Assembly (NCBI GenBank): GCA_016218065.1
Contig: JACRFA010000122.1
Coordinates: 1-42,625 of the forward strand
Direction: 5' to 3'
Source: Ignavibacteriota bacterium
GTDB taxonomy: Bacteria > Bacteroidota > Ignavibacteria > UBA10030 > UBA6906
DNA length: 42,625 nt
Positions 478-28,197 of this stretch are shown here, piece after piece. The notes beneath the pieces are model-generated. The model was not told where the DNA came from, did no database searches, and saw only the letters and a list, made by a program, of their open reading frames with translations. A program made the position numbers and the translations under genes. Position 1 is the stretch's first letter. Each line of letters opens with the position of its first letter.

Positions 478-3400
478 ATGCCTAATCGACTACTGCTGTT
501 CTTGTGTTTCGTGGCGGTAATATCTTTGCCACTTTCGTCAATAGCACAAGAGAGACCAGACGATCCTCGCTGGAACATTCGTTCTTCTACGCTGCTACAA
601 ACCGGCGAGACGTCAACTCCGGCGCAACAACATCCGGCGTTTGTTCCAAACACGAAGTCGCGACGGTACGACACACCTCTCGGAACGATGCTTGTCGAAC
701 CAAACGTTCGGCCACGGGCAAACACGGGTTACCATCAATCCGAAGTCAACATTGCGACGCATCCGCTGAACCGCAATATCATGTTCGGCGCGTCGCACAA
801 CATCACGACGGTGAGTCCGCTGAAGATCAACGTCGCGACGTTCATCACAACAAATGCGGGACAAACGTGGTATGGATTTGACACGCTGGCGGATTACAAC
901 ACGCAGCGCGGCGATCCGGCGCCGATGATCGACAAGGATGGCGTGTTTATTTATGGACATCTCAACAGCACGGCAAACTTCGGCTCAGTGACGGGCATGG
1001 GCATGAACCGGTCGACGAACATGGGCATCACGTTCGAGCCAACAATCCCGATCACGAATGCGGGCGGCAGCGACGCCGATAAGAACGCGCTCGGCACTGA
1101 TGACATACCGACAAGCGCGCACTATGGCAACTCCTATATGGCATGGACGAAGTTCACTGCCGGCAACACGCCCGCAGTCATCCTTGTTACGCGCACAACT
1201 GATCACGGCGTGAGCTGGTCATCGGCAACGCAAGTCAACACTGCGGCCTCGGGAACCTTCTCTCAAGGGACCGATGTTGCGGTCGGAACAAACGGCGACG
1301 CCTACATCTGCTGGGTGGAAGAAAGCACAACGTCGCCTTATCCGTCGCGCTTCATCGGCTTTGCAAAATCAACTGATGGCGGCGTGACATGGACGTACAC
1401 CAACACGGCCTATGCGACCAGCGGCATGCGCAGCTCATCGTACAACGGCTGGGCAGTGCGTGTGAACGACTTCCCGCGCATGGCAATTGACAAGAGCGGC
1501 GGTGGACGACGCGGGTGGATCTACGTTGTCGCGGCGGAACAAAACCTCGCCCCTGCGGGAACCGACGCAGACATCGTCATGCACATTTCAACCGATGGCG
1601 GAACGACGTGGGGCGCGGGCATTCGCGTCAATCAAGATCCGCTCAACAATGGCAAGAAACAGTTCTTCCCCTCTATTTGTGTTGATCAAGGCGGCGGAAT
1701 CAACGTTGCCTACTACGACAACCGCGATTACGCAGCGTCAGGCGACTCATGTGAAGTCTGGATGTCGCGCTCGATCGATGGCGGCCTCACATGGACTGAC
1801 ATTCAGGCCAGCGATCATGCCTTCCGTCCGAAGAATGTTCCGGGCGTGAATTCCATGGGCGACTACATGGGCATCACGGCGGGCAACGGCAAAGTGTGGC
1901 CGATGTGGATGGATGATCGTTCAGGGTTCTATGATATATGGACTGCAGGAATTAGCGTCGCGGATCCGATTGATCCGATGCCTCCCGGCTCTGTGAGCGC
2001 ATTCAGTGATTACTCGACTCCAACATCAATGCGGCTGAATTGGACGCGCCCGACAACGCTCGTCAACGGCGATCCGATTGGACCCTACGTCATGCGCATC
2101 AAACGCAACGGCGTGCAAATCGCCGAGCGTCCCTCGACCGATTCAACATTTATCGACACGGGACTTACGGATGGAACGACCTACACCTACGTGTTCCAGA
2201 CGCGCCTGACTGCGAACGACAGCTTGAGCAACGAGATGCAAGTGATCTGGGTTGCCGGCGGAGCAAAGACATCTGCCTCGCCCACCAATCTTGCAGTCAC
2301 TGGAACAAGCGCGTCGGGCTACAAACTGAAATGGAAGAATCCGTCCCGACAAACGGACGGTACGCGGCTCGATGACTTCGTGGGCATCAGAATCTATCGC
2401 GACGGCTCATTGGTCAGCACACTCACAAGAACTGTTGCCGACACGGCTCGCAACGATAGCACAACAGATTCACCGGCGGCAGGATTCCATACGTTTCAAG
2501 TTACAGCGATTGACAACGAGAATCCGGTCAACGAAAGCGGTTTGAGCAACACCGGTCAGACTCCGCTTGACCTTCCATTCAACGACGCGTTTGCGACAGC
2601 AGGTGCGCCGGATGTGAACCGATGGGTCGCGACGGGAGTTGACATCAATGACCTCGGACAGAACGAACCGAGCAGCCCCTACTCGCTCAACTTGAACGGC
2701 AGTCCGACGAGCAACACCGACAACATCGATTCTCGTCCGTTTGATCTGACCGGCCGTCAAGGTCAGGGACTCGCGATTTCTTATCTCTATCAACCCGGCG
2801 GAACAAGTGATCGTCCTGAGGTTGCTGATAGTTTGATTCTTGAATTCCAAAACAGCAACGGCGTCTGGGTGACAGTCAGAAAATATCCCGGCATCGCATC
2901 GACCACACCAATTCCTGATTTTGCCTTTGAAGCAGTTGGAGTTGATGGCATCGATCCGCAGGGCGGCTCGTTCTTCTTTAACGGATTTAAGTTCCGATTC
3001 CGCAGCCGTGGAACTGCCGGTACATCCGATGACGATTGGTTTGTTGATGATGTGTTCTTCGGCATCCCAACCGGCTCCGCGAATCTCGCGGCGACGGGCG
3101 TTATCTCGCCTGCGGGTCAAGTCTCGAACAACGTTGCTCTCAATCCGGTTATTCGCGTTCTGAACGCGAGCGCGGTTCAAGCCGGCGTGTACACAGTGAA
3201 TGTGAACATCACCGGCCCGGGGACGACGTACAATGCGACACAGACAGACAGCAATCTCGCTGCAGGAGCAACGCGCAACGTTCCTGTCTCAACCGCATTC
3301 ACGCCGAATGCAGTCGGGCAGTGGAATGTCAAAGCATGGACACGATTGACCGGCGATCCGAATCCGGCAAACGACACGACAACATCGACGTTCTACGCTG

Positions 3401-5373
3401 TCAACCCGCTGACGATGCCGGTGCAAGAGGCGTGGCCGGATAGTGGGTTGCTCAATCCGTTGAAGTGGACCAATGTCAATGCGCGAGTGAACGCAGATGC
3501 AACGGGCGAGCCGAGTGAGCCGTTTGCGCTCAACCTCTCCGGCAATCCCACTGCAGCAGGTCTCGACACAGTCACATCACTGACCATCAATCTCTCGGGA
3601 CGCGCTGGACAGAACGTGACGCTTGCGTACTGGCAACAGCCGCAAGGTACAGGCGAAGTCCCCGATGCAGCAGACAGTCTCGTGACTGAAGCACTAAATG
3701 ATCAGGGTGGTTGGGTAGTGTTAGGAAAACTCCCCGGTGCAGCGGTTCGACCGTTTGCATTCGTGCGCTTCAATCTCGACAGCGTCAGCGCCGGTGGCGG
3801 ATCATTCTTCCATAGCGGATTCAAATTCCGCTTCCGCAGCAGATCGTCGTCAACGACAACGACGAGACAGGACGACTGGTTTGTGGATGATATCTTCTTA
3901 GGCATCCCCAACACCATTCCGCTGATGGTTGTGTCGCCTCAGACAGTAGCGGATACCGTTCTCGTCGGGCAGGTTGACTCGACATCGTACGTCTTCAACA
4001 TTCTCAACAACAATCCGTTCGCAACAGGATTGAGTTACACGATCGCCGAGACTCCCGCGGTGAACTGGCTCGCGGCTTCTCCCGCGTCAGGTTCGGTGAA
4101 CGGCGGCACAACGTCGCTCATTCATGTTGCGGTAAACTTCACGGGACAGACTGCGGGCAACTACACAACACGATTGCTCGTGAGCGGCAACGATCCGGGC
4201 AACGCAGTGGATACGGTGACGGTGAACTTCCGCGTCAACCAGGCGCCGGTCGTCAGCACCAATCCCGATTCATTCTTCTTTGTGCGCAACAGCGGAGATA
4301 GCGCCACTGCACAGCTCAAGGTTCGTAACACCGGACTTGGACCGTTGACTTACTCAACCACGATTAGCGGCGCGTACGCGGGATATGCAGAGACGAATAT
4401 CGGCGCAGCGACAACAAGTCTCGCGACAAGTTCTGCACTCATGCGCGGCGGCGTTGTTGATGTAACGAGCACGGTACAGCTCAACGAAATTCGGAGCTGG
4501 CTCACAATTACTATCGAACGAGAGCTACGCTGGGTCGTCTATGAGAATACGAGCGGAACGAGCTACACGAAAATCTTCGAATCTGTCACGGCAAGCTCCG
4601 GCACCGGCGGACCTCTGTGGTACTCATCGGGTCCGGTCAACCTCGTTCTGCAAGCAGGAAAGAAGTACGCCATTGGCGTTGATTGGCCTGCGGTGACGGG
4701 ATCCGGACTTACATACCACTACCGGGTGAGCAGCCCTGTTCCGGAGCCGATTTCATTCGGCAACATCACCGGCGGACTCGCGCTCTCAGCATTCCCGCCC
4801 GCTCCGACCATATCGGTCTCGCAGACAAACACGTTGTACTACACGCAGCTTGTTACATCGAGCGGCAAATGGCTCAGCATTACTTCGAACCAGAGCGGCA
4901 CAGTCGCGCCCGGCGATAGCGCGGCAATTGGCTTCAAAGTCAATTCGACCGGACTTGTGCAGGGGACAAACCTCGGTGCACTGGCGATCAGCAGTAACGA
5001 TCCAGTCAAGCCGATCGTGAGTGTCCCGGTGCGGCTCGATGTGTTGACGGGCGTCGATGAGTTGGAGACGGGTATTCCTCTGGAGTTCTCACTCGCTCAG
5101 AACTATCCGAATCCGTTCAATCCATCGACGACGATTCGCTTCGGATTGCCTGAGCAAGCAACTGTGAGCCTGAAAATCTACAACTTGCTCGGTCAGCAAA
5201 TTGCGACACTTGCTGAAGGCGAAATGCCGGCTGCATATCATCGCGTTGTGTGGAACGGTAGAAACAGCGCGGGCGCGCAGGTCGCGACGGGCATGTATTT
5301 CTATCGCTTCGAAGCAACCGGTGCGTCAGGTGAGAAGTTCAACAGCTTGAAGAAGCTGATTCTGCTTAAATAA
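478..5373 (+). CDS. T9SS cargo protein with Asp-box propeller, FN3 and jelly-roll repeats
   Basis: A 1631-aa exported protein. The ATG has an AAGGAGG Shine-Dalgarno 4 nt upstream. Residues 1-24 are a signal peptide. Residues ~27-490 form a sialidase-like propeller with repeated Asp boxes (STDGGVTW, STDGGTTW, SIDGGLTW). I do not see an FRIP motif, so glycosidase activity is not supported. Two FN3-like domains follow (~503-700), then two copies of a ~165-aa module with FKFRFRSR and DDWFVDD motifs (~699-865 and ~978-1150) around a CARDB-like domain. Ig-like/BACON-like segments lead to a type A sorting domain (~1539-1631). The propeller is a close paralog of the one in the next gene, and the sorting domain is also closest to that gene's. 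Function is probably an extracellular or cell-surface structural, adhesive or binding role. A strong terminator follows directly. Confidence 0.9.
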   Translation: MPNRLLLFLCFVAVISLPLSSIAQERPDDPRWNIRSSTLLQTGETSTPAQQHPAFVPNTKSRRYDTPLGTMLVEPNVRPRANTGYHQSEVNIATHPLNRNIMFGASHNITTVSPLKINVATFITTNAGQTWYGFDTLADYNTQRGDPAPMIDKDGVFIYGHLNSTANFGSVTGMGMNRSTNMGITFEPTIPITNAGGSDADKNALGTDDIPTSAHYGNSYMAWTKFTAGNTPAVILVTRTTDHGVSWSSATQVNTAASGTFSQGTDVAVGTNGDAYICWVEESTTSPYPSRFIGFAKSTDGGVTWTYTNTAYATSGMRSSSYNGWAVRVNDFPRMAIDKSGGGRRGWIYVVAAEQNLAPAGTDADIVMHISTDGGTTWGAGIRVNQDPLNNGKKQFFPSICVDQGGGINVAYYDNRDYAASGDSCEVWMSRSIDGGLTWTDIQASDHAFRPKNVPGVNSMGDYMGITAGNGKVWPMWMDDRSGFYDIWTAGISVADPIDPMPPGSVSAFSDYSTPTSMRLNWTRPTTLVNGDPIGPYVMRIKRNGVQIAERPSTDSTFIDTGLTDGTTYTYVFQTRLTANDSLSNEMQVIWVAGGAKTSASPTNLAVTGTSASGYKLKWKNPSRQTDGTRLDDFVGIRIYRDGSLVSTLTRTVADTARNDSTTDSPAAGFHTFQVTAIDNENPVNESGLSNTGQTPLDLPFNDAFATAGAPDVNRWVATGVDINDLGQNEPSSPYSLNLNGSPTSNTDNIDSRPFDLTGRQGQGLAISYLYQPGGTSDRPEVADSLILEFQNSNGVWVTVRKYPGIASTTPIPDFAFEAVGVDGIDPQGGSFFFNGFKFRFRSRGTAGTSDDDWFVDDVFFGIPTGSANLAATGVISPAGQVSNNVALNPVIRVLNASAVQAGVYTVNVNITGPGTTYNATQTDSNLAAGATRNVPVSTAFTPNAVGQWNVKAWTRLTGDPNPANDTTTSTFYAVNPLTMPVQEAWPDSGLLNPLKWTNVNARVNADATGEPSEPFALNLSGNPTAAGLDTVTSLTINLSGRAGQNVTLAYWQQPQGTGEVPDAADSLVTEALNDQGGWVVLGKLPGAAVRPFAFVRFNLDSVSAGGGSFFHSGFKFRFRSRSSSTTTTRQDDWFVDDIFLGIPNTIPLMVVSPQTVADTVLVGQVDSTSYVFNILNNNPFATGLSYTIAETPAVNWLAASPASGSVNGGTTSLIHVAVNFTGQTAGNYTTRLLVSGNDPGNAVDTVTVNFRVNQAPVVSTNPDSFFFVRNSGDSATAQLKVRNTGLGPLTYSTTISGAYAGYAETNIGAATTSLATSSALMRGGVVDVTSTVQLNEIRSWLTITIERELRWVVYENTSGTSYTKIFESVTASSGTGGPLWYSSGPVNLVLQAGKKYAIGVDWPAVTGSGLTYHYRVSSPVPEPISFGNITGGLALSAFPPAPTISVSQTNTLYYTQLVTSSGKWLSITSNQSGTVAPGDSAAIGFKVNSTGLVQGTNLGALAISSNDPVKPIVSVPVRLDVLTGVDELETGIPLEFSLAQNYPNPFNPSTTIRFGLPEQATVSLKIYNLLGQQIATLAEGEMPAAYHRVVWNGRNSAGAQVATGMYFYRFEATGASGEKFNSLKKLILLK

Positions 5374-5425
5374 GTAACCGGAAAAATGTCCTAACAGTGG
5401 ACAACAACGTCTCAGCGACGGAACC

Positions 5426-5464
5426 AACGCCTTCCGATGGAAACATCGGGAGGCGTTTCTTTTC
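5426..5464 (+). terminator. Intrinsic terminator of the first complete cargo gene
   Basis: A 14-bp stem (5426-5439 with 5444-5457, one T-G wobble) closed by a GAAA tetraloop is followed by TCTTTTC. It lies about 50 nt after the stop codon. Confidence 0.85.
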
Positions 5465-5476
5465 GTTGTCAATGAA

Positions 5477-5530
5477 TTGTTGGTCGGGACTCCCGTCCCG
5501 ACATTGACGAGTCGGAGACTCGTCCAACAA
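5477..5530. repeat. Palindromic element with a possible three-way junction
   Basis: An outer 7-bp stem, TTGTTGG (5477-5483) with CCAACAA (5524-5530), encloses two perfect hairpins: TCGGGAC-tccc-GTCCCGA (5484-5501) and ACGAGTC-gga-GACTCGT (5507-5523). Only CATTG separates the inner hairpins. It sits between two intrinsic terminators. The compact layout resembles REP-type or small mobile intergenic elements, but no second full copy is in this window. Confidence 0.65.
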
Positions 5531-5535
5531 TCGCT

Positions 5536-5576: not shown

Positions 5577-5604
5577 GTGTTAGAAGAAAAAATGTCCAAA
5601 CTGT

Positions 5605-5633: not shown

Positions 5634-5639
5634 GAATCA

Positions 5640-5891: not shown

Positions 5892-8800
5892 ATGTCTCAG
5901 CGATCACTGCTTGTTTTTTCGGCGTTACTCGCGCTGGTGTTTAGTTTTCGGGCGATAGCGCAGGAAAGACCAGAGGATCCACAATGGAACGTCCGTTCAT
6001 CCGTTCAGATGAAGACTGCTGAAACGTCAGCACCTGCACGATTGAACACCGACTTCCGACCGAACACAACTCCACGCGTTGCGAACACACCGCAGGGAGT
6101 GATGGTGGTGGAACCGAACGTTCGACCGAGGCCGAACACGACCTACCATCAGTCCGAAGTGAATATTGCCGCGCAGGCATCGAACAGAAATATCATGTTC
6201 GGCGCTTCGCACAATATTCGCTCCAGCGCGATCAACGTCGCGACGTTCATTACCACGAACGGCGGTCAGACGTGGTATGGCGGCGACACGCTCGCCGATT
6301 ACAATACGCAGCGTGGTGATCCGGCCCCGATCATCGACTACAGTGGCATCTTCATCTACGGCCATCTCAACAGCACGGCGAACTTCGGTTCGGTAACGGG
6401 CATGGGCATGAATCGCTCCACCAACAAGGGCATCACGTGGGAAGCGACAATTCCCATCACGAATGCAGGCGGCAGCGACGCTGACAAGAACGCAGTCGGC
6501 ACGGATGACAGTCCTGCCAGTCCCTTCTTTGGCAATACGTATATGGCGTGGACGAAATTCACTGCGGGAAACGTGCCTGCAGTTATTCTCGTGACACGTA
6601 CAACCGATCATGGCGCATCGTGGTCAACAGCGGCGCAGGTGAACACCGCCGCAGCCACAACGTTCTCCCAAGGCACTGATGTTGCAGTTGCTCCGAATGG
6701 CGATGCCTACATCTGCTGGGTGGAAGAAAGTACAACATCACCCTATCCTTCACGATCAGTCGGGTTCGCAAAGTCGACCAATGGCGGCGTGAACTGGACA
6801 TTCAACAACACTGCATACGCCACAAGCGGCATGCGCAGCTCTTCATACAACGGCTGGGCAGTTCGTGTGAACGACTTCCCGCGCATGGCGGTCGATAAGA
6901 CCGGCGGCGGTCGCAGTGGCTGGATTTACATTGTCGAGGCAGAGCAAGGTCTCGCTCCTGCCGGCACCGACGCAGACATCATCTTCCACCGTTCAACTGA
7001 CGGCGGCACGACGTGGTCGGCTGGCATCCGCGCCAACCAAGATGCGTTGAACAACGGCAAGAAACAATTCTTCCCCTCTGTTTGTGTCGATGCAGGCGGC
7101 GGTATCAACGTTGCGTACTACGACAACCGCAATTACGCATCGACTGGAGACTCCTGCGAAATCTACATGTCGCGTTCACTCGACGGCGGCAACACGTGGG
7201 TCGATGTGAAAGTGAGCGACCATGCGTTCAAGCCGAAGAATGTTCCGGGCGTGAACTCCATGGGCGACTATATGGGCATCGCGGCCGGCAACGGCAAAGT
7301 GTGGCCCATGTGGATGGATGATCGTTCAGGCTTCTACGATGTGTGGACCTCCGGCATTCTCACGACCGAAAGTTTTGGTTGGGTCAAGGGAATAGTCACC
7401 AACACATCGGGCGGCGGGGCAGTGAGCGGAGCGAACATCGATTTCGTTCAGACGATTCCGCAAGTACAGACAATCACCAATGCAACAGGCAATTATCTTG
7501 CCGGTGCACGCGTCGATACACCAGGTACAACGGCCAACCTTACGCTTCGCGCAAGGTTGTTCGGGTTCCGCGATACGACCATTGCCGTAACACTGACGCG
7601 CAATGATACGTTGACGCGCAACTTCCAGATGACGCCTGCAGCAGGCGGCACGCTTGCTATTCATGCGTATCGCGCGCCGAACGTCGGCATGCGGGCAGCA
7701 GTGACGGTGAACTTCAACGGTACGCCGGTGATAAATAACTTCACCGACTCACTGACCGGTAACTTTTCAGCGCCACTTCCCACCGGCACGTATCAAGTGA
7801 TTGTGAATCCAGCATCACCTTATGCAACGCGAACATTCAACGGCGTTGTGATCAATGCAGGTCAGACGACGAATGTGGATGCTCTGCTCCGCTCGGTGGT
7901 TGAATTCAACCCAACGGCCGTGCGCGACACGCTTCCTGTCGGCGGCTCGCATGTCAAGACGCTTGCCATGACGAACACGACGACGGACACCGTGCGATTC
8001 CGCATTACGGATGACAATGCACTCGCACGTGTAAAAAGAAACCGTGTGATTGTGCCCGAACCTGCGGTTCAGGTTCCGGCAGTCGAGCGTCCGAAGGGCG
8101 CACCGGATACTGAGTTCGGTCAGACGCCTGATGGTCGCGGGGGACCGGATGCATTTGGCTATTCGTGGATCGACTCCGATGAACCGGGCGGACCTGCAGT
8201 ACAGTACTACGATATTCGTTCCGTCGGTACACAAATCACGACTATGACGTCGGGTTCGCTGGATGACGGCTATGCCACGATTACGTTGCCCTGGTCGTTC
8301 GTACACTATGGCAACACGTACACTTCGATGAACGTCGGCACGAACGGTTTCGTCAACTTCGGAACTGGTTCGACGTCGCTCTCGAACGGCGCGATTCCTT
8401 CAGTTGCTGCGCCCAACAACGCGATCTATGCATTCTGGGATGATCTCGATTTGCGAACGCGCGGCAAACTGTTCTATTACAATGATGTCGCGAACAGCCG
8501 ATTCATTGTTCAGTGGGATAGCATTCCACGCTACAACTCCGGCGGCGCGGCTGCCGAGCATGACACGCTTGAAATCCAGATCGTATTCAAACCGAACGGC
8601 GAGTACTTGCTGAATTACCGGAAAATCTACACCGAAGTCCCGGGCGATCTCGCGACGCACACGATCGGTGTTGAGAACGCAGCCGGAACGGTTGGCTTGC
8701 AGGTCGTGAATAATGCGGCCTATCTCCATAGCAACCTGACCATCCGCGTGTTCTTGCCGGATGCCCCGTGGCTTTCGGAGAACCCGACACTCGGCGCAAT

Positions 8801-11800
8801 TCCGCCAAGCGGCACACAGAACGTGCAAGTAACGTTCGACGCAACGGGCCTGACGCCCGGTACGACGTACAATGCGAACATGTTTGTTGAAGCAACGCAT
8901 CCGGACGTTACAACGCCTTACACCGTTCCGGCAAGCCTGCTCACGCAAACGGCGACCAATCCGTTGATCGTGCTCAACAAGACGAGCATCACCTTCCCCA
9001 CCGTTGCGATCGGACAGTTCCGACGTGATACTATCACAGCGCGCAACGTGGGCGGACAGGTACTCAACATTACATCGATCACGCGGACGAACACCGACTT
9101 CGCCGTAACACCGTCGAGCGCGAATGTCAATCCGAATGACTCGGTGAAGATCATCGTGACATACACCCCGACTGTACCTGCGGGAGCAGACACGGGCCGT
9201 GTCACGATCGTCAGCAACTCCTCTGTGAATCCAACCGCCGTGGTAACACTGAGCGCTAACTCAATAGGCGTTCCGGTGTTCAGAGCTCGCGTCGACTCAC
9301 TGACGAAGACTCTGCAGGCGCGCAACGTTGATTCAACGCTGTTCTACGTTCGCAACACAGGAACGATGAGCGGCAACTTCAACGCACGCGCAGTGATGTA
9401 CCCGCGAACAGAGGCGGGCGACAATAGCGAGCCAATCATTATCCCGATGAACATTGAGAAAGCCGCAGCAACGCCGCGGACTTCTTCAGTGAACGATCAG
9501 GATCGCGCACCTTCTCTTGCACACAATTCGCCTCTCGCTCTGGGCGATACGTTGTTCTCTGCGCCGTTGTACACGAGCGCAAACAACGTGAACCAGCAGG
9601 GCATCGAGTACGCGAACGGATTCTTCTGGACTACGAACAGAGGTCCGAATCCGAGTGTGGGAACGAACTACACATTGAAGTTCACATTCAATCCCACAAC
9701 GAAACGATTCACAATCGTTGACTCGGTTCTGCAGCAGAGCACAAGTGAATTCGGCTATCGCGATCTCGCGTTTGACGGCACATACCTCTACGGAAGTGAA
9801 GGTTTGAGCCTGAAGCAGATCAATGCGACGACCGGCGTTGAGACGGGTGTCTCTATCAACGTGACAGGCGCCGGCACGATTGCCGTGTTGCGCGCTCTTG
9901 CGTATGATCCGGTAGGCGATCTCTTCTACGCAGCCGATTTCGGTTCATCGATCATTGCTTTCAACCGAAGCGGAGTTGTGACTCGTACGATTCCCAATCC
10001 TGGATCACCAGCTTGGGCATTCTACGGCTTCGCGTGGGATAGCTGGTCAACAGGCGGCCCGTACCTCTGGGGCTACGTGCAAAACGGAACTCCGGCCATC
10101 TCGCTGGTGAAGATTCTCGTGTCCAGCGGAGCCGTCGTTCAGTCATGGCAGGGATTCACGCCTGGCCCGACAACTGACGTTGCAGGCGGAGCGACGATCG
10201 TTCCCGGACTCCTTCCGGGCAAACTGGTCTTCGTTGGCGTGAACCAATCGACCTCGGTGACTGCATACGATGCAGGACCGTACTCAGGTGGCGGCGGTAC
10301 CGGCCCATGGCTGGCGATTGCTCCTCCAACCGGAACGATTGCAGTCAACGATTCCGTGCAGATGAAGGCAACGTTCGATGCACGCGATCTCGAGATCGTG
10401 AACAACCCCGGCACGTATCGCGGCCGAGTTGAGATCACAGCAACGAATTCTGCTTTGGCAGACAGCTTGAATATTCCGGTTCGCTTCACCGTCACGCCGA
10501 TCACCGGCGCGGCGTTGCTTGCGACTCCTGATTCGATCGGCTTCGGCAACGTCGCCATTGGCGTTACCGACTCATCGAAGACATTCCTTGTGAAGAACAT
10601 CGGAACGTCGACGTTGAACGTCACCAACATTACGAGCAGCAATGCGGCGTTCTCCGTGAACCGCACGAGCTTCACGCTCAGCACGAATGATACAACCCGT
10701 ATTCGTGTTCGGTTTACTGCACCGACGCCTGCTGGTTTGAGAACAGCGAATCTCACATTCGTCTCGAACGACGCGGGCGCACGTCCGGTGAAGGTGACCG
10801 GAACATCCATCGGTCAGGCGAACATCGTTGTCTCGCCAGACTCCTTCAGCTTTGCGCTGAATCGCAGCGCCGACACAACTCGTGCGACATTGAAGATCAA
10901 GAACACGGGCACGGATACACTTCGCTTCAACATCAACGAAGTGTTGAATGCCAACGACAATCTTGATCCTCAGCCGATCGTCGTCCATGAGCACTACGAT
11001 CTGCCGAAGGGCGCGATCGATACACACACGCCATACTCGTCGCCTGATGGTCAAGGTGGTCCGGATGCATTCGGCTACCGTTGGATCGACAGCGATGAAC
11101 CGGGCGGACCCGTGTACAACTGGGTCGATATCACCTCGACCGGAACACCGCTCGATTCAGGCAGCGCGTGGGTTGCAACAGGAACGTTCACGCCGTACGA
11201 TGAAGGGTACTACCCTGTTCGATTGCCCTTCACATTCAATTACTACGGCGTAGCCAAAGACTCCATCTTCATCGGAACAAATGGTTACGTTTCATTCCAG
11301 CGACCGTCGGCCAATGCGTTCAGCAACACGCAGTTCCCAACGGCAGGCGGCCCGCTCGACAACGTTCTTGGCCCATGGTGGGATGATCTGGAAGTTAGCC
11401 AGACCGCCAAGATTTATTACGGCACGAACAGCGGCGACTTTGTCATTCTCTTTAAGGACATTCGCATCTACACATCGGCACACTCGGGACCGGCGGACTA
11501 TACGTTCCAGGTTATCTTGAGTCCGAGCGGCGTGATCAAGTTCCAGTACCAGGCAATGGGTATCAGCTCCGGTACATTGATTTCGTCATCCATCGGACAA
11601 GAGAACGCGACCGGCACAGTCGGGCTTTCAGTAGCCTTTAATGCCGCGTATATGCACAACAATCTCGCGATCATCCTCTCAAGCGACCTCGTGCCCTGGC
11701 TCTCTGTTGACAGAACCAGCGGAACGATTCGTCCGGGAGACAGCACGAACGTCCAGTTGCGCATTGTGCCCAACATCGCTCAGGGCGTTTACATCGGACG

Positions 11801-13505: not shown

Positions 13506-13525
13506 CAAAATGATCGCGAATGAGT

Positions 13526-18869: not shown

Positions 18870-18910
18870 GGCCCTTATGAGGATTGTTGGAGGGTTGGAG
18901 TAATGTCTGT

Positions 18911-18949
18911 CCGCCTGCATCCCGACGGTTTGTGTCGGGACGCAGGCGG
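18911..18949. repeat. Hairpin element with GGTTTGT loop, copy 1
   Basis: CCGCCTGC-a-TCCCGAC, the loop GGTTTGT, then GTCGGGA-c-GCAGGCGG: a 15-bp stem with a single A/C mismatch. It lies between the stop codon and the terminator. A related element with the same loop occupies the same place after the next gene. Confidence 0.7.
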
Positions 18950-18964
18950 GAGTTTTGGAAGATG

Positions 18965-19000
18965 AATGGGCGAGTCGATTTGGCTCGCCCATTTTGTTTT
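18965..19000 (+). terminator. Intrinsic terminator of the beta-helix cargo gene
   Basis: A 10-bp stem AATGGGCGAG (18965-18974) with CTCGCCCATT (18984-18993), a 9-nt loop and the tail TTGTTTT. The stem sequence recurs in the terminator at 23594. Confidence 0.85.
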
Positions 19001-19155: not shown

Positions 19156-19161
19156 CATTCG

Positions 19162-19517: not shown

Positions 19518-22500
19518 ATGAACTCTGCTCTGAAGGCTTTTGCAGTTGCCTCGACTATCTTCATATTAGCCGCGTTCTCTGCTTATGCAGAGATACTCCC
19601 TGCCAATCCCGGGCCTTCCAACAATGGAGGCGCAACGGGATATGCGATCTTCATGGACTTCATCGGGGGTCCAATCCCCATCGACATAACAAACATGAGA
19701 ACCGCCAACACTGCGGCGGCGGCCGCGTCATTCACTGTCGAAGTGTTGACGCGCGATGGCACTTCACTTGGCGGACCGGTTGGTTCGGGCGCGGGAAGTT
19801 CTATGGCGGGCTGGACCTCACGCGGCACCGTGCCTGTCGTGCAGGGTCCGACAGGCAGCGGAATTTCCGAAGTCTTTGCCATTCCCACAATATCGATTAC
19901 ACCGGGCGACACCGTCGGCGTCGCTCTGCGATTCACCGGCGCGGGGCCGCGCTACTTCGGCACAGGCACTCCTCCCTACACCACCTACACCGATGGCAAC
20001 CTCACACTCATAACAGGCGACTCGCGATCGGCTCCCTTCACGACGACAGGCTCGTTCTTCACGTCACGCGCTCTTGTCGGTGAAGTGCATTATGCTCGCG
20101 GCGGCACACCCGGCTGGAGCCTGCAAACTTCCGGCATCACTACTGCTCTCTACAGCGTGAAAGCTGTGAATGGTCAGATTGTCTGGGCGGCGGGTGCAGG
20201 CGGAAAAGTGCTGCGTACAACAAACGCAGGCGTCGCATGGACAAGCGTGGGCGGCGGCAACATTGGTACGATGGACTTGTACAACATCGCAGCAACGAGC
20301 GCGACCGCTGCACTCACAACAGGAACGCCGTCGACGACTTCATTCATCTTCCGTACAACCAACGGCGGAACATCCTGGGATACTGTGTATGTGCAGGCAG
20401 GAGGATTCATCAATGCAATTCACATGTTCGATGCGACCAATGGAATCGCTCAGGGCGATCCGGTTGGCGGTAAGTGGACAATCGTTCGAACGACAAACGG
20501 CGGAGCGACGTGGGTGCGCGACACAACGAACGCTCCGGTTCAAGTCGGAACTGAGGCAGGATCGAACAACGGATTCGCGGCGCTTGGCTCGACGCACATC
20601 TGGTTCACATCGAACAGCTCGCCGCCGAAAGTCTATCGGACAACAAACGGCGGGACGACCTGGGCATCGGGCAATCTTCCCGGCGCAGCCACGTTCACTG
20701 CTGGACTGGCGTTCCTGAGTACCCAGTACGGTGTTGCCGGAGGAAATAACGGCAACGCTGCGCGCTCAACAGATGGAGGCGCCACATGGGCCGCTGTCAC
20801 CGTCGGGACGACCGGCGCCATCTACAGTGCGGCGGCGGCGGGCACGCTTGACTTCTGGGCAACACGAGGCACCACCATTCAGACGAGCAACAATCTCGGC
20901 GCGACGTGGCATCAGGATTTCACCGACACAGCCACCGGCACGTTTCAACACATGAGTTTCGTAACGTCCGGCAGGATCGCGAATGGATGGGCGGTCAGTT
21001 CCAACGGCAAGATCTTCACCTACTTCAATCCTGTTAGCTTACACGACATTGGCGTCGCATCACTCGCAAAGACTTTCTCGACAAGTCTGCTTCCGCAACC
21101 AACACCATTAGTTGATCCGAAAACAGTTGATGTTGCCTCGACGGCGACGAACCTCAACGATGATGGCTCGCCGAGCGTGGCACTTGAGCCAATGAAGAAC
21201 TCGTTCATGCTTGCAGATACTGTTCGACTTCGGGCAATCGTCAAGAACTTTGGCACGCTTCCGGAATCAACTTACCAGATCGCTTGGCAAGTTAATGGCG
21301 TCGGTCAAACACCGATCAGCAATCCGCGACCGTTGCCTGCGGGCGCCAATGATACGTTGACGCTGCAATGGAATCAGGCAGTCAACGGCATTCATACCGC
21401 AAAGGCATGGACGGTTCTTGCATCGGATAATAATCGAGCGAACGACACTGCAGCCACTTCTTTCTCCGTTGGATTGATACCGGGCGACACGTTGTACACG
21501 TTCGTCGTCCCCAATCATATTATTCTCGGCGTTTCAAGAATTGGAGAATCAAAGAAACTCGCATTCACGAGCGGCGGCCAAAGCAGTGCCGTTACCACCG
21601 ACAATAAATGGATTGTCACTGATTTGCGCGGAGCTCTTCTCGACACCACGCATGCCCAACTCAATCCCACAAGTACCGGTGGAAGTCCAGGATTCGGATT
21701 CCGTGATTTGACCTGGGATGGTCGCTGGTTACTGACCTCGGATGACAATCGCATTCGTCGCGTCGATACGACGACGTTCACAGAGATTGCAACTCCCATT
21801 ACGTTCGGTACAGCAACATCATTGCATCGTGGCTTGGGCTTTGAAAAGGTGAACAAGATTTGGAAGTCCAATTTCACGACCGAGCCTGTTATCGGTGTTG
21901 ACACAACGGGAGCCACGGTGAGAACTCTTGGCACACCACCAGTTGCACCTTACGGCATCGCCTTTGACAAGTGGACATCGTCAAACAGGGGATGGCTTTG
22001 GTACTCCGAACCTTCAGCGACAGGCGGTCCGGTCCGGTTATCAAAAATCGATACCGCAACAGGAGCAATCGTGCAGACGTTCAACTATCCGTTTACCGGG
22101 ACCGGAGTATCCGGTGGACTGGATATCTTCGTGGGTCATCCTGACTACCCAGGTCGGGTGATTGCGGCGCTTGTGGTACAGGGTTTCCCCGCCAGCCGCT
22201 GCATCATCATCAATCTCGGCCCCGACTCTACTGCAACGCAACCCACTCCCGGATGGACGGTACAGACTTCGGGAACGACTCAAGCATTGCGTTGCGTGAA
22301 GGCGCTCGACCGATTCAACGGCTGGATTGGCGGAGCGGGAGGAACAGTGCTGCGAACGACAAACGGCGGAACGACGTGGACTTCTGTTGGCGGCGGACCG
22401 ATGGGAACAAACACCGTGTACGCGATTGATGCGCTAAGTGCGACAACAGCGTTCACGACAACAAGTCCGTCCGGATGGTCACACATCTTCCGTACGACAA

Positions 22501-23489
22501 ACGGAGGCACGTCGTGGGATACTGTGTACTCGCAAGCCAACGGCTTTATCGATGCCATCAAGATGTACGATGCATCAAACGGCATAGCTGTTGGCGATCC
22601 TGTTGATACGAAGTGGACCATTGTCAAGACCACGAACGGCGGCTCCACGTGGGCGCGCATCGCGACAGAGCCGGCGCAGGTAGGCACGGAGGCCGGCTAC
22701 AACACATCGATGTCAACCGTCGGTACAACGCATGTGTGGTTCGGCACCGACAACAGCCGCGTCTATTACACCACCAATGGAGGCACCACATGGAGCTTCA
22801 CAGCAACCGCGTTCAGCGCAAGCGTGGGCGTCGGGTTCCTTGACGCCAACTATGGCGTCGCAGGAGGAAGCAGCAGCAACAACGCGGCAGCACGATCGAC
22901 AAACGGCGGAACAACATGGGTTCCTGTCACGATGCCTGGCACGGGTTCAATCTACGGCATAATCGGTCGAGGCGTAGATTTCTGGGCGGGACGAGGCACG
23001 CTTGTGCTTCACAGCGGCAACCGTGGCGCCACGTGGGACACGTCGTACGCAACAAACATCGGAGCGTATAGGCACCTTGATTTCGCGTGGCAAGGCGCCA
23101 ACGTCTATGGTTGGGCTGGCACAGCAACAGGCGGCATCGCGTATTTTGTCGGGACACTGACGGATGTCGATGATACGCCGCGTGAAGGAGTGCCACAGAC
23201 CTTTGCGCTGCAGCAGAACTATCCGAACCCGTTCAATCCGACAACGACAATTCTGTATGCGTTGCCTGAAGCAGCACGCGTGAACCTGAGCATCTACAAC
23301 GTGCTCGGCCAGCGTGTTGCTGAATTGAAGAACGAAGTTCAGAATGCAGGATTCTATAATGCAATCTGGAACGGGCGCAACGACGCCGGCGCTCAGGTTG
23401 CGACGGGCGTGTACTTCTATCGCCTCGAAGCAACACCATCGAGCGGCGCGACGTTCGTGAGCATGAAGAAGGCGTTGCTGTTGAAGTAA
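19518..23489 (+). CDS. T9SS cargo protein with two Ycf48-like propellers
   Basis: A 1323-aa exported protein. The ATG has TAAGGAGG upstream at 6-7 nt. The signal peptide ends near residue 24 (AYAE). An N-terminal beta-rich domain (~25-195) is not recognised. It is followed by a Ycf48-like propeller (~196-500; RTTNGG, STDGGATW), a CARDB-like domain (~505-650), a propeller starting GDTLYTF (~655-905), a second Ycf48-like propeller (~910-1220) and a type A sorting domain (~1229-1323). The order propeller-CARDB-propeller-propeller suggests an internal duplication or insertion of the CARDB-plus-GDTLY unit between two Ycf48-like units. Its 3' end and downstream element are nearly the same as those of the preceding gene, so the two genes share a duplicated tail. 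No enzymatic motif was seen; extracellular binding or adhesion is most likely. Confidence 0.9.
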   Translation: MNSALKAFAVASTIFILAAFSAYAEILPANPGPSNNGGATGYAIFMDFIGGPIPIDITNMRTANTAAAAASFTVEVLTRDGTSLGGPVGSGAGSSMAGWTSRGTVPVVQGPTGSGISEVFAIPTISITPGDTVGVALRFTGAGPRYFGTGTPPYTTYTDGNLTLITGDSRSAPFTTTGSFFTSRALVGEVHYARGGTPGWSLQTSGITTALYSVKAVNGQIVWAAGAGGKVLRTTNAGVAWTSVGGGNIGTMDLYNIAATSATAALTTGTPSTTSFIFRTTNGGTSWDTVYVQAGGFINAIHMFDATNGIAQGDPVGGKWTIVRTTNGGATWVRDTTNAPVQVGTEAGSNNGFAALGSTHIWFTSNSSPPKVYRTTNGGTTWASGNLPGAATFTAGLAFLSTQYGVAGGNNGNAARSTDGGATWAAVTVGTTGAIYSAAAAGTLDFWATRGTTIQTSNNLGATWHQDFTDTATGTFQHMSFVTSGRIANGWAVSSNGKIFTYFNPVSLHDIGVASLAKTFSTSLLPQPTPLVDPKTVDVASTATNLNDDGSPSVALEPMKNSFMLADTVRLRAIVKNFGTLPESTYQIAWQVNGVGQTPISNPRPLPAGANDTLTLQWNQAVNGIHTAKAWTVLASDNNRANDTAATSFSVGLIPGDTLYTFVVPNHIILGVSRIGESKKLAFTSGGQSSAVTTDNKWIVTDLRGALLDTTHAQLNPTSTGGSPGFGFRDLTWDGRWLLTSDDNRIRRVDTTTFTEIATPITFGTATSLHRGLGFEKVNKIWKSNFTTEPVIGVDTTGATVRTLGTPPVAPYGIAFDKWTSSNRGWLWYSEPSATGGPVRLSKIDTATGAIVQTFNYPFTGTGVSGGLDIFVGHPDYPGRVIAALVVQGFPASRCIIINLGPDSTATQPTPGWTVQTSGTTQALRCVKALDRFNGWIGGAGGTVLRTTNGGTTWTSVGGGPMGTNTVYAIDALSATTAFTTTSPSGWSHIFRTTNGGTSWDTVYSQANGFIDAIKMYDASNGIAVGDPVDTKWTIVKTTNGGSTWARIATEPAQVGTEAGYNTSMSTVGTTHVWFGTDNSRVYYTTNGGTTWSFTATAFSASVGVGFLDANYGVAGGSSSNNAAARSTNGGTTWVPVTMPGTGSIYGIIGRGVDFWAGRGTLVLHSGNRGATWDTSYATNIGAYRHLDFAWQGANVYGWAGTATGGIAYFVGTLTDVDDTPREGVPQTFALQQNYPNPFNPTTTILYALPEAARVNLSIYNVLGQRVAELKNEVQNAGFYNAIWNGRNDAGAQVATGVYFYRLEATPSSGATFVSMKKALLLK

Positions 23490-23527
23490 GGCCTCAGGGG
23501 TTGTTGGAGCAATGCCTGCTCACCGAA

Positions 23528-23569
23528 GTCCTGACGGTTTGTGTCAGGACGCAGGCGGGCCTGCCCGCC
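23528..23569. repeat. Hairpin element with GGTTTGT loop, copy 2
   Basis: GTCCTGAC (23528-23535), the loop GGTTTGT and GTCAGGAC (23543-23550), followed by GCAGGCGG and the palindrome GGCGGGC-ct-GCCCGCC (23554-23569). The loop and the GCAGGCGG arm match the element at 18911. The stem differs at one compensated base pair, which supports selection on structure. Confidence 0.7.
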
Positions 23570-23593
23570 GAAGTGTTTTGTACGCAGGCGGGG

Positions 23594-23630
23594 ATGGGCG
23601 AGTCATGTTTTGGCTCGCCCATTTTTTTTT
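23594..23630 (+). terminator. Intrinsic terminator of the double-propeller cargo gene
   Basis: A 9-bp stem ATGGGCGAG (23594-23602) with CTCGCCCAT (23614-23622), an 11-nt loop and an uninterrupted T-run. It is homologous to the terminator at 18965. Confidence 0.9.
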
Positions 23631-23647
23631 CCGGGAAACGCGGTCCT

Positions 23648-23703
23648 TTCACGGAATACCGTGAATGGTATTCCTGGCCGACCAAATCGTCCTAAAGGAC
23701 GAT
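23648..23703. repeat. Overlapping palindromes downstream of the terminator
   Basis: TTCACGG-aata-CCGTGAA (23648-23665) overlaps GGAATACC-gtgaat-GGTATTCC (23653-23674), so the two hairpins exclude each other. ATCGTCC-taaa-GGACGAT (23686-23703) follows. There is no coding character. Confidence 0.55.
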
Positions 23704-23854
23704 CCAATTTCCCTTTGTCCGCGAGCCCTCAGATATATTTCGATGAGCCCGACGTCTCGCAGCGCCGTCGTCGCGGGCAGGCATTCAGAATGATAATGCA
23801 ATAACATGTCATCACAATGAACAACAGCGGCAACGCCTCCAGAAGGCCTCAGAG

Positions 23855-23938
23855 TGAAACCAGGAAATGATGCTTGACATTGTAGTTACACTTTGCTAAG
23901 TTGGTTCGGAGAGAATTAACTCTCCTGGTTTCATTTCC
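23855..23938. repeat. Inverted repeat flanking the promoter of the Kelch cargo gene
   Basis: TGAAACCAGGA (23855-23865) is the exact reverse complement of TCCTGGTTTCA (23923-23933). In the same arms GGAAATGA (23863-23870) is the exact reverse complement of TCATTTCC (23931-23938). Each arm therefore reads as a permutation of one 13-bp unit. The promoter and a GGAGAG-N6-CTCTCC hairpin (23908-23925) lie between or within the arms. Confidence 0.55.
23874..23902 (+). promoter_or_regulatory. Promoter of the Kelch cargo gene
   Basis: Consensus TTGACA (23874-23879), a 17-nt spacer and a weak -10, TAAGTT (23897-23902). Predicted start near 23909, inside the flanking inverted repeat. Confidence 0.5.
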
Positions 23939-24177
23939 AATCTGATCTACATTCTTCAACTCTCTTTTCGTTTCGCTGTAGCTGAGCCTCTGGCTTAGAT
24001 TGTTCTCTTCACAACGATCAACACCAACTTCTTCTTCCTCAGTCTCACTGTCTGAAAGGAAAAGCCACTCGACGCCATAACATGTCTTGATGTTCGCGGC
24101 ACAGTTTCGTGAAGCACACCGTTCGTGCAATCTCCAAACATCTCAATCACAATCACTACACCAAAAGGAGGGTAACC
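23909..24177 (+). other. Long 5' leader of the Kelch cargo gene
   Basis: About 270 nt. It contains the GGAGAG hairpin, a small CTGAGCC-tct-GGCTTAG hairpin (23982-23998) and a pyrimidine-rich tract, and ends in a C/A-rich stretch before AAGGAGGG. No recognised riboswitch class. Confidence 0.4.
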
Positions 24178-27100
24178 ATGATTCAAAAAGTACTCTTTGC
24201 GCTGGTTCTGACTATCCTTGTGAGTGGGCTTCTGTGGGGTGCGACTGATGGAAAGAAACAGATCTCAACACTGCTCCCAGCCAATCCCGATACGAGCGCG
24301 CCGGACGCGTGGGGATATACGTGGGTGAAGAGCACCGAGCCGGGAGGCCCGACATTCCGATGGGTCGATATCGCGACACGCGGAACGCGCGTCACCGGAC
24401 TGACTGACGACAACGTTGTTGGACCGTTCAACATGCTCTGGGACTTCTCCTACTACTGGTACTCATCCAACAGGTTCAAGGTTGGCTCTAACGGGTACAT
24501 CACGTTCGACAACACGACGACCGCATTTGCGCCGTCGTTCGCGCAATTGCCCGCGACATCGCTGCCAAACGACCTGATGGCAATCTGCGTTGGCGACCTG
24601 GTGTTCTCAGGGCAGGCGGGCGCGGCAGGTGATTGCTTCTACTGGACGAACGGCACCGACTCACTCGTCGTCAGCTTCATCAACGTTACCGAGTGGGAAC
24701 AGACAATCAACCCAAACACAAAGCACACATTCCAGGTGATTCTCTCGAAATCCGACAGCTCCATCACCTATCAGTACGGCTTGCAGCAAGGCAGGTACAA
24801 TTCAACCAACAACACGCGTCTTTGCATCGGCATGGAGAATGCAACGGGCCAGATTGGTTTGAATTATGTTTACTCAACAGCTCCTCCACATGCCCTTTTA
24901 CCCGACAGCGGACTCGTTATCAAGTTTAAGAGAACGAGAAACACCGGCCTCCAGGTAACCGATGGTGGTATTGTTGGCGGCTTCAACTCCGCAAACCTAG
25001 CAAAGATGGTAAAGGTTGGCGTTGCTGATACGATTAAGTGTCTCATAAAGAATTTTGGGACCGCTGCTATCACCAACGCGTCAGTGCGCTATGCAATCTC
25101 GCGAACGGGTCAGACTACCGTTTATGATACAGTCGTTGTACCATCGCTCGCCCCTTCCCAAGAAATGACTGTAACATTCCCACGCCTGTTCACTCCGGCG
25201 CTGACAGGATCATATACATCACTGTTCACGATTGTCGTGACAGGCGACGTTGGGCCCGGCAACAACACGAAGACGGCCGAGATCAGGTCTCTTGATTTCG
25301 GAACGACTGGCTCGCGAACCCAACTCGCTTTTGAAAACGGCACGCAAACCAGCAGCACATCATGGATCGGCGGCGGCGGATACGGTTATGCTTTCGATCT
25401 GCCGGCGGATGTGTATCCGGTTTATGTTGAGACTGTTTATGTGAACATTGCATCGATTACTGCCAATCCGATGATCGTTCAGATCATGGATGGTTCGACG
25501 GGAATTCCAGGCACCATTCTCGCGGAAAAAACAAATGTCACGGCAGTAGTTGGTTGGAATGCGATTCCATTCACCTCTGACAGTGTGCGGGTCAACGGTG
25601 GACGATTCTTCGTCGGGGCGCGAGGAAACATGGCATTCTATTATGAAGGAACCGCGCCACTCTCGTATCGCACGTGGGAATACACAGGCGGTTGGGCGCC
25701 ATATCGAAGCGCTGATCTGCAGGATCTTCACGTCCGTGCAACGGTGCGTCGGCCTGGAGTTGTCATTCCCGGTCACGACATTGGCGTGAGTTCGCTTGTG
25801 CGTACCGCCGCGAACGATGCGCCGGCAGTGCTCAACCCAACCATCGACGTTCCTGACATTGCGAACGTTGTTGATCTTTCGTCGGGCGAGCATATCACGT
25901 ACGTTGCGATGGCTGATACGGCCCGCTTCCGCGCCATCGTGCAGAACTTCGGTACGTTCCCCGAAACGACGTATCAGGTTCGCTTCACGGTGAACGGCAA
26001 TACGATTTCCACAGTGAACAACGGCAGAATTCTCGCGGTTGGCGGCAGAGATACATTCAATCTCGCGTGGAATGCCGGAACGCCGGGCACGCATCTCGCC
26101 AAAGCCTTCACGATTCTCGGCGCCGATAACAATCGCGCAAACGATACTTCCAGCGCGAGCTTTACTATCACGTCGCCGGGCGCACAGCCGGGCGATACGC
26201 TCTACTCGTTCAGAATCACGAATCAGCTGCTGCTCGGCGTCGCGAAGATTCCCAGCAACAAGCTCGTCTTCACCAGCGGTGGACAAAGCAACACGCTGAC
26301 GACAGACAACAAGTGGATCGCCACGACAATGCGCGGAACGATCCTCGACACGACGAAGCTTCAGATCAACAACACGTCGGGTCAGGGATTTGGCTTCCGC
26401 GACCTCGCGTGGGATGGCCGTTCGCTGCTCACATCAGACAACGCGCAATTGCGTCGGGTCGATACTGTAACCTACACGGAGCTTCTCCCGCGTATCACCG
26501 GGCCAGGCGCACTGCAGCGCGGCGTTGCATGGGAAATGTCGAACCGCATCTGGAAGTCGAACTTCACGAGCGATCCCGTTGTCAAGTTCGATACGACAGG
26601 CGCGACGATCAAGACGCTTGGCGTTCCGACTGTTGCGCCGTACGGAATTGCCTTCGACAAATGGACATCGCGTAATCGCGGGTACCTCTGGTACGCGCAG
26701 CCCTCGACAACAGGCTTGTACAGATTGTCGAAGGTTGATACCGCCACCGGAGCAATCCTGACGACATACGATTACTCGACGATGTTTACGACAGGCGGCT
26801 CAAGCGGCGGCCTTGATATCACGAACAGCCATCCTGATTATCCGGGACGCGTTGTTGCGTTCATGGTAATTCAGCTTGGTGTTCCGGCGGGAGGTATTGT
26901 CGTTGCGATTGATCTCGGACGCGACTCGTCGCAAACCTCAACTACTTGCAACACGTTCGCGTCACAGTGGTCACCTCCCGGAAGATTCCCTGATACTCCG
27001 GACACAACGTACTTCCAGGCTGCAGCATGGTTAGGCGATACTCTCTACGTGCACGCGCCGACAAGTGCTGGAGCGGGTTCAACGCGAGTTTGGAAGTACA

Positions 27101-28197
27101 CATACAATGGGGCTTGGTCAACCGGCGTACCACTTCCATCAACCAAGACCGGAGGTACTCTCACTGCGTGTGCCGGCAAGTTGTACTACATCGGTGGCGG
27201 CGTCACTGCCATCAATGGCACAGCTTCAAGTGAGGTCGTGGAATTCAATCCTGCAACGCAGGCGTGGACTATCAAGGCGCCAATGCCGGTTGCGCTCGCA
27301 GGTCACGGCGCAGTTAACTGGGGCGATAGCGTGATCTTCGTGGTAGGCGGACCTTATTCCGGCTCCGGCACGAATCTCAATGTTCAGGTATATCGGCCTG
27401 CTTCCAATTCGTGGAGCACAATTGCAGCGTCGTTGCCAAGTGCACAGGGACGACGAACATTTGCCCTTGGCATTTCAGGCAACAAGATCATCATGTCCGG
27501 CGGATTCAATACGGCATTCCTGAAAACGACTTGGGTTGGCACTATCAACTCCGCGTCTTCAATTACGTGGGCAGCGGCACCGGATGTTCCCACAATCTAT
27601 GCCGGACTCAGTCGCCCGGGCGGAATCGCATACGGAGACAAGTTCTTTATCGTTTGCGGTGAACGCGCTGGAGCTGGCGGTTACTACGACACAACGCACG
27701 TCTACTCCGTTTCACTAAACTCCTGGATAGCAATCATACGCAACAAGCCGATTAGGATGTCGAACATCTTCAATGCTGTTACGGCGAAGTGCATTAACGA
27801 CACCGTGCGTGTGTTTGTTCCAGGCGGTTATGGTAACGCGACAGGACCGACGCCGGGATTTGGCCAGAGGGTCTTCGATGTGATCAACGGTGGAAGCTTG
27901 ACGGCAGTACCCGAGTTGATCTCGAATCTGCCGCAGGCTTTCAATCTCGAGCAGAATTACCCGAACCCATTCAATCCTATGACGACAATGCGGTTCACGC
28001 TGCCGCAGGCAGGCTTTGCAACGTTGACCGTGTACAACATACTCGGCCAGCGTGTTGCAGCGGTTGCTGAAGGTCAGTATGAAGCAGGAACCTACAAAGT
28101 CCAATGGGATGCGTCGCGATTTGCTTCCGGCGTGTATCTGTACCGATTGGAGTTGGGCAACTACTCGCAGACAAAGAAGATGATGCTACTCAAGTAA
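24178..28197 (+). CDS. T9SS cargo protein with PDAWGY module, propeller and Kelch repeats
   Basis: A 1339-aa exported protein. The ATG at 24178 has AAGGAGGG upstream and a signal peptide of about 20 residues; the open frame upstream of it is leader. Modules: a PDAWGYTW...EPGGP domain (~41-250), also found twice in the 2537-aa protein; a CARDB-like domain (~255-375); an unrecognised beta-rich domain (~376-530); a second CARDB-like domain (~532-670); a propeller starting GDTLYSF (~668-917), nearly identical to that of the gene at 13905; Kelch-type repeats (~930-1238; KLYYIGGG, VIFVVGG, KIIMSGG, KFFIVCG); a type A sorting domain (~1257-1339). The sorting domain ends SQTKKMMLLK like the partial protein at the window start and unlike its propeller partner. 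No enzyme motif was seen. Confidence 0.9.
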   Translation: MIQKVLFALVLTILVSGLLWGATDGKKQISTLLPANPDTSAPDAWGYTWVKSTEPGGPTFRWVDIATRGTRVTGLTDDNVVGPFNMLWDFSYYWYSSNRFKVGSNGYITFDNTTTAFAPSFAQLPATSLPNDLMAICVGDLVFSGQAGAAGDCFYWTNGTDSLVVSFINVTEWEQTINPNTKHTFQVILSKSDSSITYQYGLQQGRYNSTNNTRLCIGMENATGQIGLNYVYSTAPPHALLPDSGLVIKFKRTRNTGLQVTDGGIVGGFNSANLAKMVKVGVADTIKCLIKNFGTAAITNASVRYAISRTGQTTVYDTVVVPSLAPSQEMTVTFPRLFTPALTGSYTSLFTIVVTGDVGPGNNTKTAEIRSLDFGTTGSRTQLAFENGTQTSSTSWIGGGGYGYAFDLPADVYPVYVETVYVNIASITANPMIVQIMDGSTGIPGTILAEKTNVTAVVGWNAIPFTSDSVRVNGGRFFVGARGNMAFYYEGTAPLSYRTWEYTGGWAPYRSADLQDLHVRATVRRPGVVIPGHDIGVSSLVRTAANDAPAVLNPTIDVPDIANVVDLSSGEHITYVAMADTARFRAIVQNFGTFPETTYQVRFTVNGNTISTVNNGRILAVGGRDTFNLAWNAGTPGTHLAKAFTILGADNNRANDTSSASFTITSPGAQPGDTLYSFRITNQLLLGVAKIPSNKLVFTSGGQSNTLTTDNKWIATTMRGTILDTTKLQINNTSGQGFGFRDLAWDGRSLLTSDNAQLRRVDTVTYTELLPRITGPGALQRGVAWEMSNRIWKSNFTSDPVVKFDTTGATIKTLGVPTVAPYGIAFDKWTSRNRGYLWYAQPSTTGLYRLSKVDTATGAILTTYDYSTMFTTGGSSGGLDITNSHPDYPGRVVAFMVIQLGVPAGGIVVAIDLGRDSSQTSTTCNTFASQWSPPGRFPDTPDTTYFQAAAWLGDTLYVHAPTSAGAGSTRVWKYTYNGAWSTGVPLPSTKTGGTLTACAGKLYYIGGGVTAINGTASSEVVEFNPATQAWTIKAPMPVALAGHGAVNWGDSVIFVVGGPYSGSGTNLNVQVYRPASNSWSTIAASLPSAQGRRTFALGISGNKIIMSGGFNTAFLKTTWVGTINSASSITWAAAPDVPTIYAGLSRPGGIAYGDKFFIVCGERAGAGGYYDTTHVYSVSLNSWIAIIRNKPIRMSNIFNAVTAKCINDTVRVFVPGGYGNATGPTPGFGQRVFDVINGGSLTAVPELISNLPQAFNLEQNYPNPFNPMTTMRFTLPQAGFATLTVYNILGQRVAAVAEGQYEAGTYKVQWDASRFASGVYLYRLELGNYSQTKKMMLLK

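Follow-up and report, generated by a model that had tools for sequence, protein, structure and literature searches.

The type IX secretion (T9SS) cargo genes described here most probably form a tandem array in which paralogous cargo genes have been reshaped by duplication, gene conversion, and insertion of modules at domain borders, a reading to which we assign a probability of about 80%. The window, i.e., the whole stretch of 42,625 nucleotides that was analyzed, is the entire contig C46 of the source genome, G000, a draft of 5.17 Mb in 319 contigs. It had been predicted that the sorting domains and the passenger modules of these genes have different nearest relatives, as recombination at module borders would produce. 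The mosaic is confirmed: separate trees of the modules are incongruent (p=5e-66 for the CARDB-propeller cassette and p=2e-144 for the BNR propeller), the breakpoints lie at domain borders, and sites that are empty in congeneric genomes add evidence beyond the data on which the original prediction was made. Non-orthologous modules within orthologous genes, one empty cassette site, and sharp borders are seen directly, and the synonymous divergence of the shared modules is lower than that of orthologs from the same genus. Recombination itself is deduced from the comparison of sequences rather than from events observed directly; exchange at module borders is supported by trees and orthologs for the cassette and the BNR propeller, and by contrasts in DNA similarity together with a genome-wide neighbor test for the sorting domains.

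Positions 2–28197 of the window read as one cut T9SS cargo gene followed by five complete ones, all running in the same direction. The contig begins within the cut gene, of which only the 3′ end with the sorting domain is present (2–274; PF18962 match at C46:14-262). All coordinates of cargo genes and their domains in the window refer to the plus strand. Judged by their sequence, g478, g5892, g13905, g19518, and g24178 are T9SS cargo genes with a type A sorting domain: the TIGR04183 profile matches the C-terminus of all five complete proteins (25.1, 32.1, 31.6, 33.1, and 44.9 bits; cut-off 23), and a hydrophobic stretch can be made out by eye in the translated N-termini. Such genes are numerous in G000: of 311 candidates from a profile search, 150 were scored and every one of these exceeded the Pfam cut-off, so that the genome has at least 150 sorting domains.

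The cargo genes are followed by a housekeeping flank (28301–42565) that encodes lysine 6-aminotransferase, ALDH, PurB, HtrA, PlsY, LarB, CBS, CGL, and a sugar-nucleotide enzyme. This flank is collinear in two congeners with the same locus, G001 and G002, each the only genome of its species in the comparison; most of the encoded proteins are 74–89% identical, two are 53–56% identical, and one is 70–75% identical. For this reason, the cargo locus can be set against its orthologous counterparts in these genomes. The G001 assembly is far more contiguous than that of G000 (50 contigs), and its contig C7 is identical in sequence to CAADGV010000007.1 of the uncultured Chlorobi bacterium CHB1. The final 1551 bases of a locus on a public contig, JABWBC010000026.1 (“Phycisphaerales bacterium MAG_20”), are 100% identical to this genome; the remainder reads as unrelated to it, so the public contig appears chimeric.

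The first line of evidence is the CARDB-propeller cassette. In g24178 (24178–28197), it occupies positions 25774–26931, after a PDAFGY unit (24253–24942), a CARDB-like domain (24961–25287), and a region X (25288–25767), and before Kelch repeats (26965–27912) and the sorting domain (27949–28197). The copy in g13905 (16437–17594) is 79% identical to it in DNA over 1165 nt, which bears out the predicted pairing of these two genes by CARDB and the GDTLYSF propeller; the prediction overlooked, however, that g19518 also carries a CARDB-propeller (aa 509–898, 56% aa identity to that of g13905). In 60-base windows, identity between the cassettes of g13905 and g24178 is 55–93% inside and about 20–21% outside at both ends; in g13905, the low values belong to windows upstream of 16436 or downstream of 17636. 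Their pairing in the cassette tree has support 100/100, and a tree that forces g13905 to group with g19518, its partner by sorting domain, is rejected by the AU test at the level given above.

The gene g24178 is single-copy in G000, and so is its ortholog in each congener (G001:C33:248753-251638 and G002:C2:165171-168065; 67–68% aa identity over the first three modules). The alignment is collinear over the PDAFGY unit, the CARDB-like domain, and X, and then over Kelch; between X and Kelch, G000 has 386 extra residues, i.e., the cassette site is empty in both congeners. A related gene of another family (G021:C13, 637 aa) lacks the cassette and leaves no space for Kelch. The propeller part of the g13905 and g24178 cassettes has a synonymous divergence (pS) of 0.50, compared with 0.73–0.79 for orthologs of the same genus, indicating that the cassette was copied after the split from G001 and G002. 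The difference between the CARDB part (pS 0.68) and the propeller part (0.50) was considered as a sign of two conversion episodes within the cassette and set aside, the change point being non-significant (p=0.11); a cassette model from AlphaFold, with a mean pLDDT of 48.8, was likewise not used. Moreover, the congeners hold the g24178 ortholog at another locus, beside a gene that reads as carboxylase-like. At the corresponding place in G000 (G000:C211:1175-1302) there is only a 127-base gap where G001 and G002 hold two sorting-domain genes, one of which is the g24178 ortholog; thus, the entire gene has also changed place.

The second line of evidence concerns the N-terminal BNR propeller of g5892. 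This gene (5892–13505) consists of the BNR propeller (5955–7361), a CarboxypepD-like part (7362–8096), the first PDAFGY unit (8109–8981), a propeller that is absent from its orthologs (about 9609–10481), the second PDAFGY unit (11004–11891), a Ycf48 unit (12294–13196), and the sorting domain (13227–13505). The PDAFGY module is thus shared with g24178, as predicted. The orthologs (G002:C1:11192-17518 and G001:C4:146352-152678, 2108 residues) correspond to g5892 at residues ~540–1140 and from ~1621 to the end, with the BNR propeller excepted: identity rises from 26–47% to 51–76% past residue ~540. In the BNR tree, g5892 groups with g478, its sister, and with a set of small BNR proteins, whereas the BNR propellers of its full-length orthologs belong to another clade. 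Forcing g5892 to group with these orthologs is rejected (AU p=2e-144), and also when g478 is allowed into the group (p=2e-6). The swap may have gone in either direction. In another genus (G006:C281), the BNR type of the G001 and G002 orthologs sits on a middle of the g478 type, and in another family (G025:C40), the g5892 body carries a BNR propeller nearer to the g5892 type; because of the latter, the change may have taken place in the lineage of G001 and G002.

Related architectures occur elsewhere. In G021:C26:9041-13657, from another family, a body of the g5892 type (CarboxypepD-like part, PDAFGY units, sorting domain) follows an N-terminus that reads by eye as a subtilase. At G000:C30:44448-53126, two tandem genes encode proteins of 1646 and 968 aa with BNR propellers that are 76% alike in aa and sorting domains of different classes; the 1646-aa gene combines the BNR propeller of its tandem neighbor with a C-terminal half like that of g5892.

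The relationship between g478 and g5892 is simpler than was predicted. The gene g478 (478–5373) is composed of a BNR propeller (541–1947), an fn3/jellyroll part (1975–3957; 63% aa identity to G006:C281 of another genus), a BACON/HYDIN-type part (3970–5037; 60% to G002:C16), and a sorting domain (5095–5373). Its sorting domain does pair with that of g5892 (77% DNA identity, among the closest pairs inside the window), but the N-terminal BNR propeller is shared as well (also 77% DNA), so that the pair is congruent at both ends. The synonymous divergence of the BNR propellers and of the sorting domains is equal (pS 0.61 and 0.63), and only the middles differ. Since the shared ends are equally diverged, a single duplication followed by replacement of the middle suffices, and exchange of the sorting domain is not needed to explain this pair.

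The sorting domains of g13905 and g19518, also among the closest pairs inside the window, show a different pattern. In g13905 (13905–18869), a P-domain (14112–14579) and a part that reads as beta-helix-like (14892–16424) precede the cassette, which is followed by a Ycf48 unit (17622–18539) and the sorting domain (18591–18869). In g19518 (19518–23489), an N-terminus of its own (19590–20102) is followed by Ycf48 unit a (20109–21035), the CARDB-propeller (21042–22211), Ycf48 unit b (22239–23159), and the sorting domain (23211–23489). Similarity between the ends of the two genes (18591–19000 and 23211–23630; 78% DNA identity over 430 nt) reaches about 130 nt beyond the stop codon, and this common 3′ region includes a terminator-like hairpin (18964–18994 in the g13905 copy). 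The sorting domains themselves are 84% identical in DNA, with a pS of 0.46 vs 0.67–0.72 in the adjoining part; just 5′ of them, DNA identity is only 56% (pS 0.67). We consider that this pair may be an older and weaker case of conversion. The g19518 orthologs (G002:C1:30488-33688, 1066 residues, and a 1055-aa protein on G001:C7; 65% aa identity over aa 165–905, with orthology to the G002 protein from residue ~200 on) have a different N-terminus and no counterpart of Ycf48 unit b. Ycf48-like units are indeed present in g5892, g13905, and g19518, as predicted, and a Ycf48 tree in which the sorting-domain grouping is enforced gives a borderline result (p=0.05).

The tree of sorting domains is in itself not decisive: with 93 columns, it is too short to be resolved, and AU values shift with sampling. 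Thus, the grouping of g19518 with its own orthologs gives p=0.003 with 46 rows and p=0.17 with 53 rows, and AU tests of sorting domains were dropped as sole proof. The prediction that g24178 pairs by sorting domain with the cut gene at position 2 is not borne out: about 100 other sorting domains of G000 score higher against that of g24178, and the grouping, though not rejected (AU p=0.53), has no positive support. Genome-wide, the nearest sorting domains lie outside the window. The sorting domain nearest to that of g13905 is found on C234 (89% aa identity, compared with 88% for g19518), and one on C30 is 85% identical in aa to that of g5892, equal to g478. Sorting domains that seemed to be identical in G002:C41 and in G001:C23 were not used; the true C23 pair has 84% aa identity. 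The evidence for exchange of sorting domains comes from the DNA contrast with the adjoining module and from the neighbor test.

The neighbor test drew on 44 stretches of G000 that were picked for their dense sorting domains and supplied 137 sorting-domain genes; the shuffles keep the layout. For 37 of the 137 genes, the sorting domain nearest in sequence lies within 20 kb (mean of 3.1 and maximum of 10 in shuffles); when homologous passengers are left out, this holds for 24 of the 137 (3.4 and 10). The test gave a similar picture in G001, with 15 of 68 genes (1.9 and 7) and, homologous passengers left out, 9 of 68 (2.0 and 7). Neighboring genes with unrelated passengers thus have sorting domains that resemble each other much more often than expected by chance.

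Individual pairs outside the window point to a mechanism. Tracts of low pS with abrupt borders in an otherwise diverged gene pair are present at C125 and C282. In the adjacent C125 pair (genes 7263 and 8812, minus strand), the sorting domains are 99% identical in DNA (pS 0.03) and the passengers 47% identical in aa (pS 0.78); the border of similarity lies about 30 bases 5′ of the sorting domain, and similarity stops at the stop codon. This is most economically read as a recent conversion tract. In the C282 pair (genes 12256 and 13977, plus strand), about 115 codons before the sorting domain are 97% identical in DNA (pS 0.09 vs 0.56) and the sorting domain itself only 84%, suggesting conversion that spared the sorting domain. 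Gene conversion is the most economical mechanism for both pairs and may extend to the older cases. In a trio on C1, DNA identity of 86–89% begins within 3 nt of the sorting domain, with little or undetectable homology of passengers; on C257, the contrast of the sorting domain with the passenger is small. The conserved YPNPFNP motif was considered as a recombination handle at the DNA level and rejected: its codon bias has a match in the codon context of the passengers, and its 27-base stretch occurs in 123 variants in the 137 genes. In the sorting-domain genes of G000, those at window positions 2–28197 included, the residue that follows has a strong influence on codon choice: Tyr is mostly TAT when Pro comes next, though TAC is the commoner codon overall, and Gln is mostly CAG when Asn comes next.

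The strongest alternative, which we consider improbable as a general account, is tandem duplication after which the middle modules were lost, were replaced, or diverged very rapidly, the shared ends being remnants and the sorting domains never copied. The equally diverged ends of g478 and g5892 agree with it, as does the existence of near pairs with homologous passengers. It is disfavored at C125, where synonymous sites of the passengers are saturated and those of the sorting domain nearly unchanged, and for the cassette, which entered a pre-existing ortholog. Somewhat less probable still is that mosaic genes or modules were acquired ready-made by horizontal transfer from other lineages instead of being exchanged inside the genome. 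This would fit the middle of g478, which resembles a gene of another genus and is mostly absent from both congeners, and the different location of g24178 in the congeners, a locus that is empty in G000. However, each shared module usually has its closest relative in the same genome, often within 20 kb, and the full CARDB-propeller cassette is confined to this genus among the 31 genomes searched. That all modules are ancestral, with incongruence produced by unequal rates and differential loss, is very improbable: some alignments are short, as for the sorting domain, and some branches long, but the AU tests refute this account for the BNR propeller and the cassette under the models used, and abrupt identity borders and synonymous contrasts within one gene pair speak against it as well. 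Assembly chimeras, conceivable in a draft metagenome-derived assembly of many contigs and with one chimeric public contig found for a congener, can be dismissed almost entirely, as the shared window segments are only 77–84% identical with unbroken reading frames, two other genomes show synteny over the flank, and the pattern recurs in the 50-contig G001.

The reading that we prefer, duplication combined with gene conversion and module insertion, would proceed as follows. Paralogous cargo genes, mostly close together, would duplicate, and the duplicates would then exchange segments one-way by gene conversion or acquire an entire module at the border between domains. The units exchanged would include the sorting domain, sometimes together with its adjoining 3′ region, as well as the CARDB-propeller cassette, the BNR N-terminus, and the Ycf48 unit. 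The machinery is presumably that of ordinary homologous recombination, the donor and the direction assumed for any one transfer are equally presumptive, and the outcome would be secreted surface proteins with new combinations of passengers. A further proposal, that the sorting domain evolves locally in concert as an exchangeable cassette, with neighbors that have unrelated passengers repeatedly copying the export tag from one another, is in our opinion about evenly balanced.

The nearest precedent that we found is the Porphyromonas gingivalis rgpA, kgp, and hagA genes, in which cleaved-adhesin and DUF2436 domains are rearranged between strains and gene conversion was proposed (PMC5266723). As in that system, the T9SS cargo proteins are large, their C-terminal signal is conserved, and their paralogs differ in the combination of modules; the same kind of process appears to act here on other modules. 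The gingipain/HagA groupings clash with strain phylogeny, and the modules described here clash with gene or species history. Whereas the gingipain units are cleaved-adhesin and DUF2436 domains, neither of which has a Pfam match in the window proteins, those described here are the CARDB-propeller, BNR, Ycf48, and the sorting domain itself; moreover, the variation is between species, in a genome rich in sorting domains, rather than between strains. The polymorphic toxin systems of Bacteroidota (PMC7073777) also involve large modular secreted proteins; domain scans of the window revealed no toxin-tip/immunity arrangement, the variable modules being propellers, Ig-like domains, and Kelch. The TIGR04183 and PF18962 family entries describe the domain and not exchange between neighboring genes, and no paper joining type IX secretion with domain shuffling was found in the literature searched. 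Domain shuffling as such is known; frequent copying of the export tag between neighbors with unrelated passengers appears to be undescribed in that literature.

For the exchange of modules in secreted surface proteins, these results offer cases at base-level resolution with empty sites in orthologs; they also show that an export signal can evolve apart from its passenger protein. Trees and annotations that rest on the sorting domain or on a single passenger domain will mislead. The origin of new surface proteins in bacteria with hundreds of T9SS cargoes becomes testable, and, if local concerted evolution of sorting domains is true, a genome with a very large cargo repertoire could freely re-tag and recombine its passengers.
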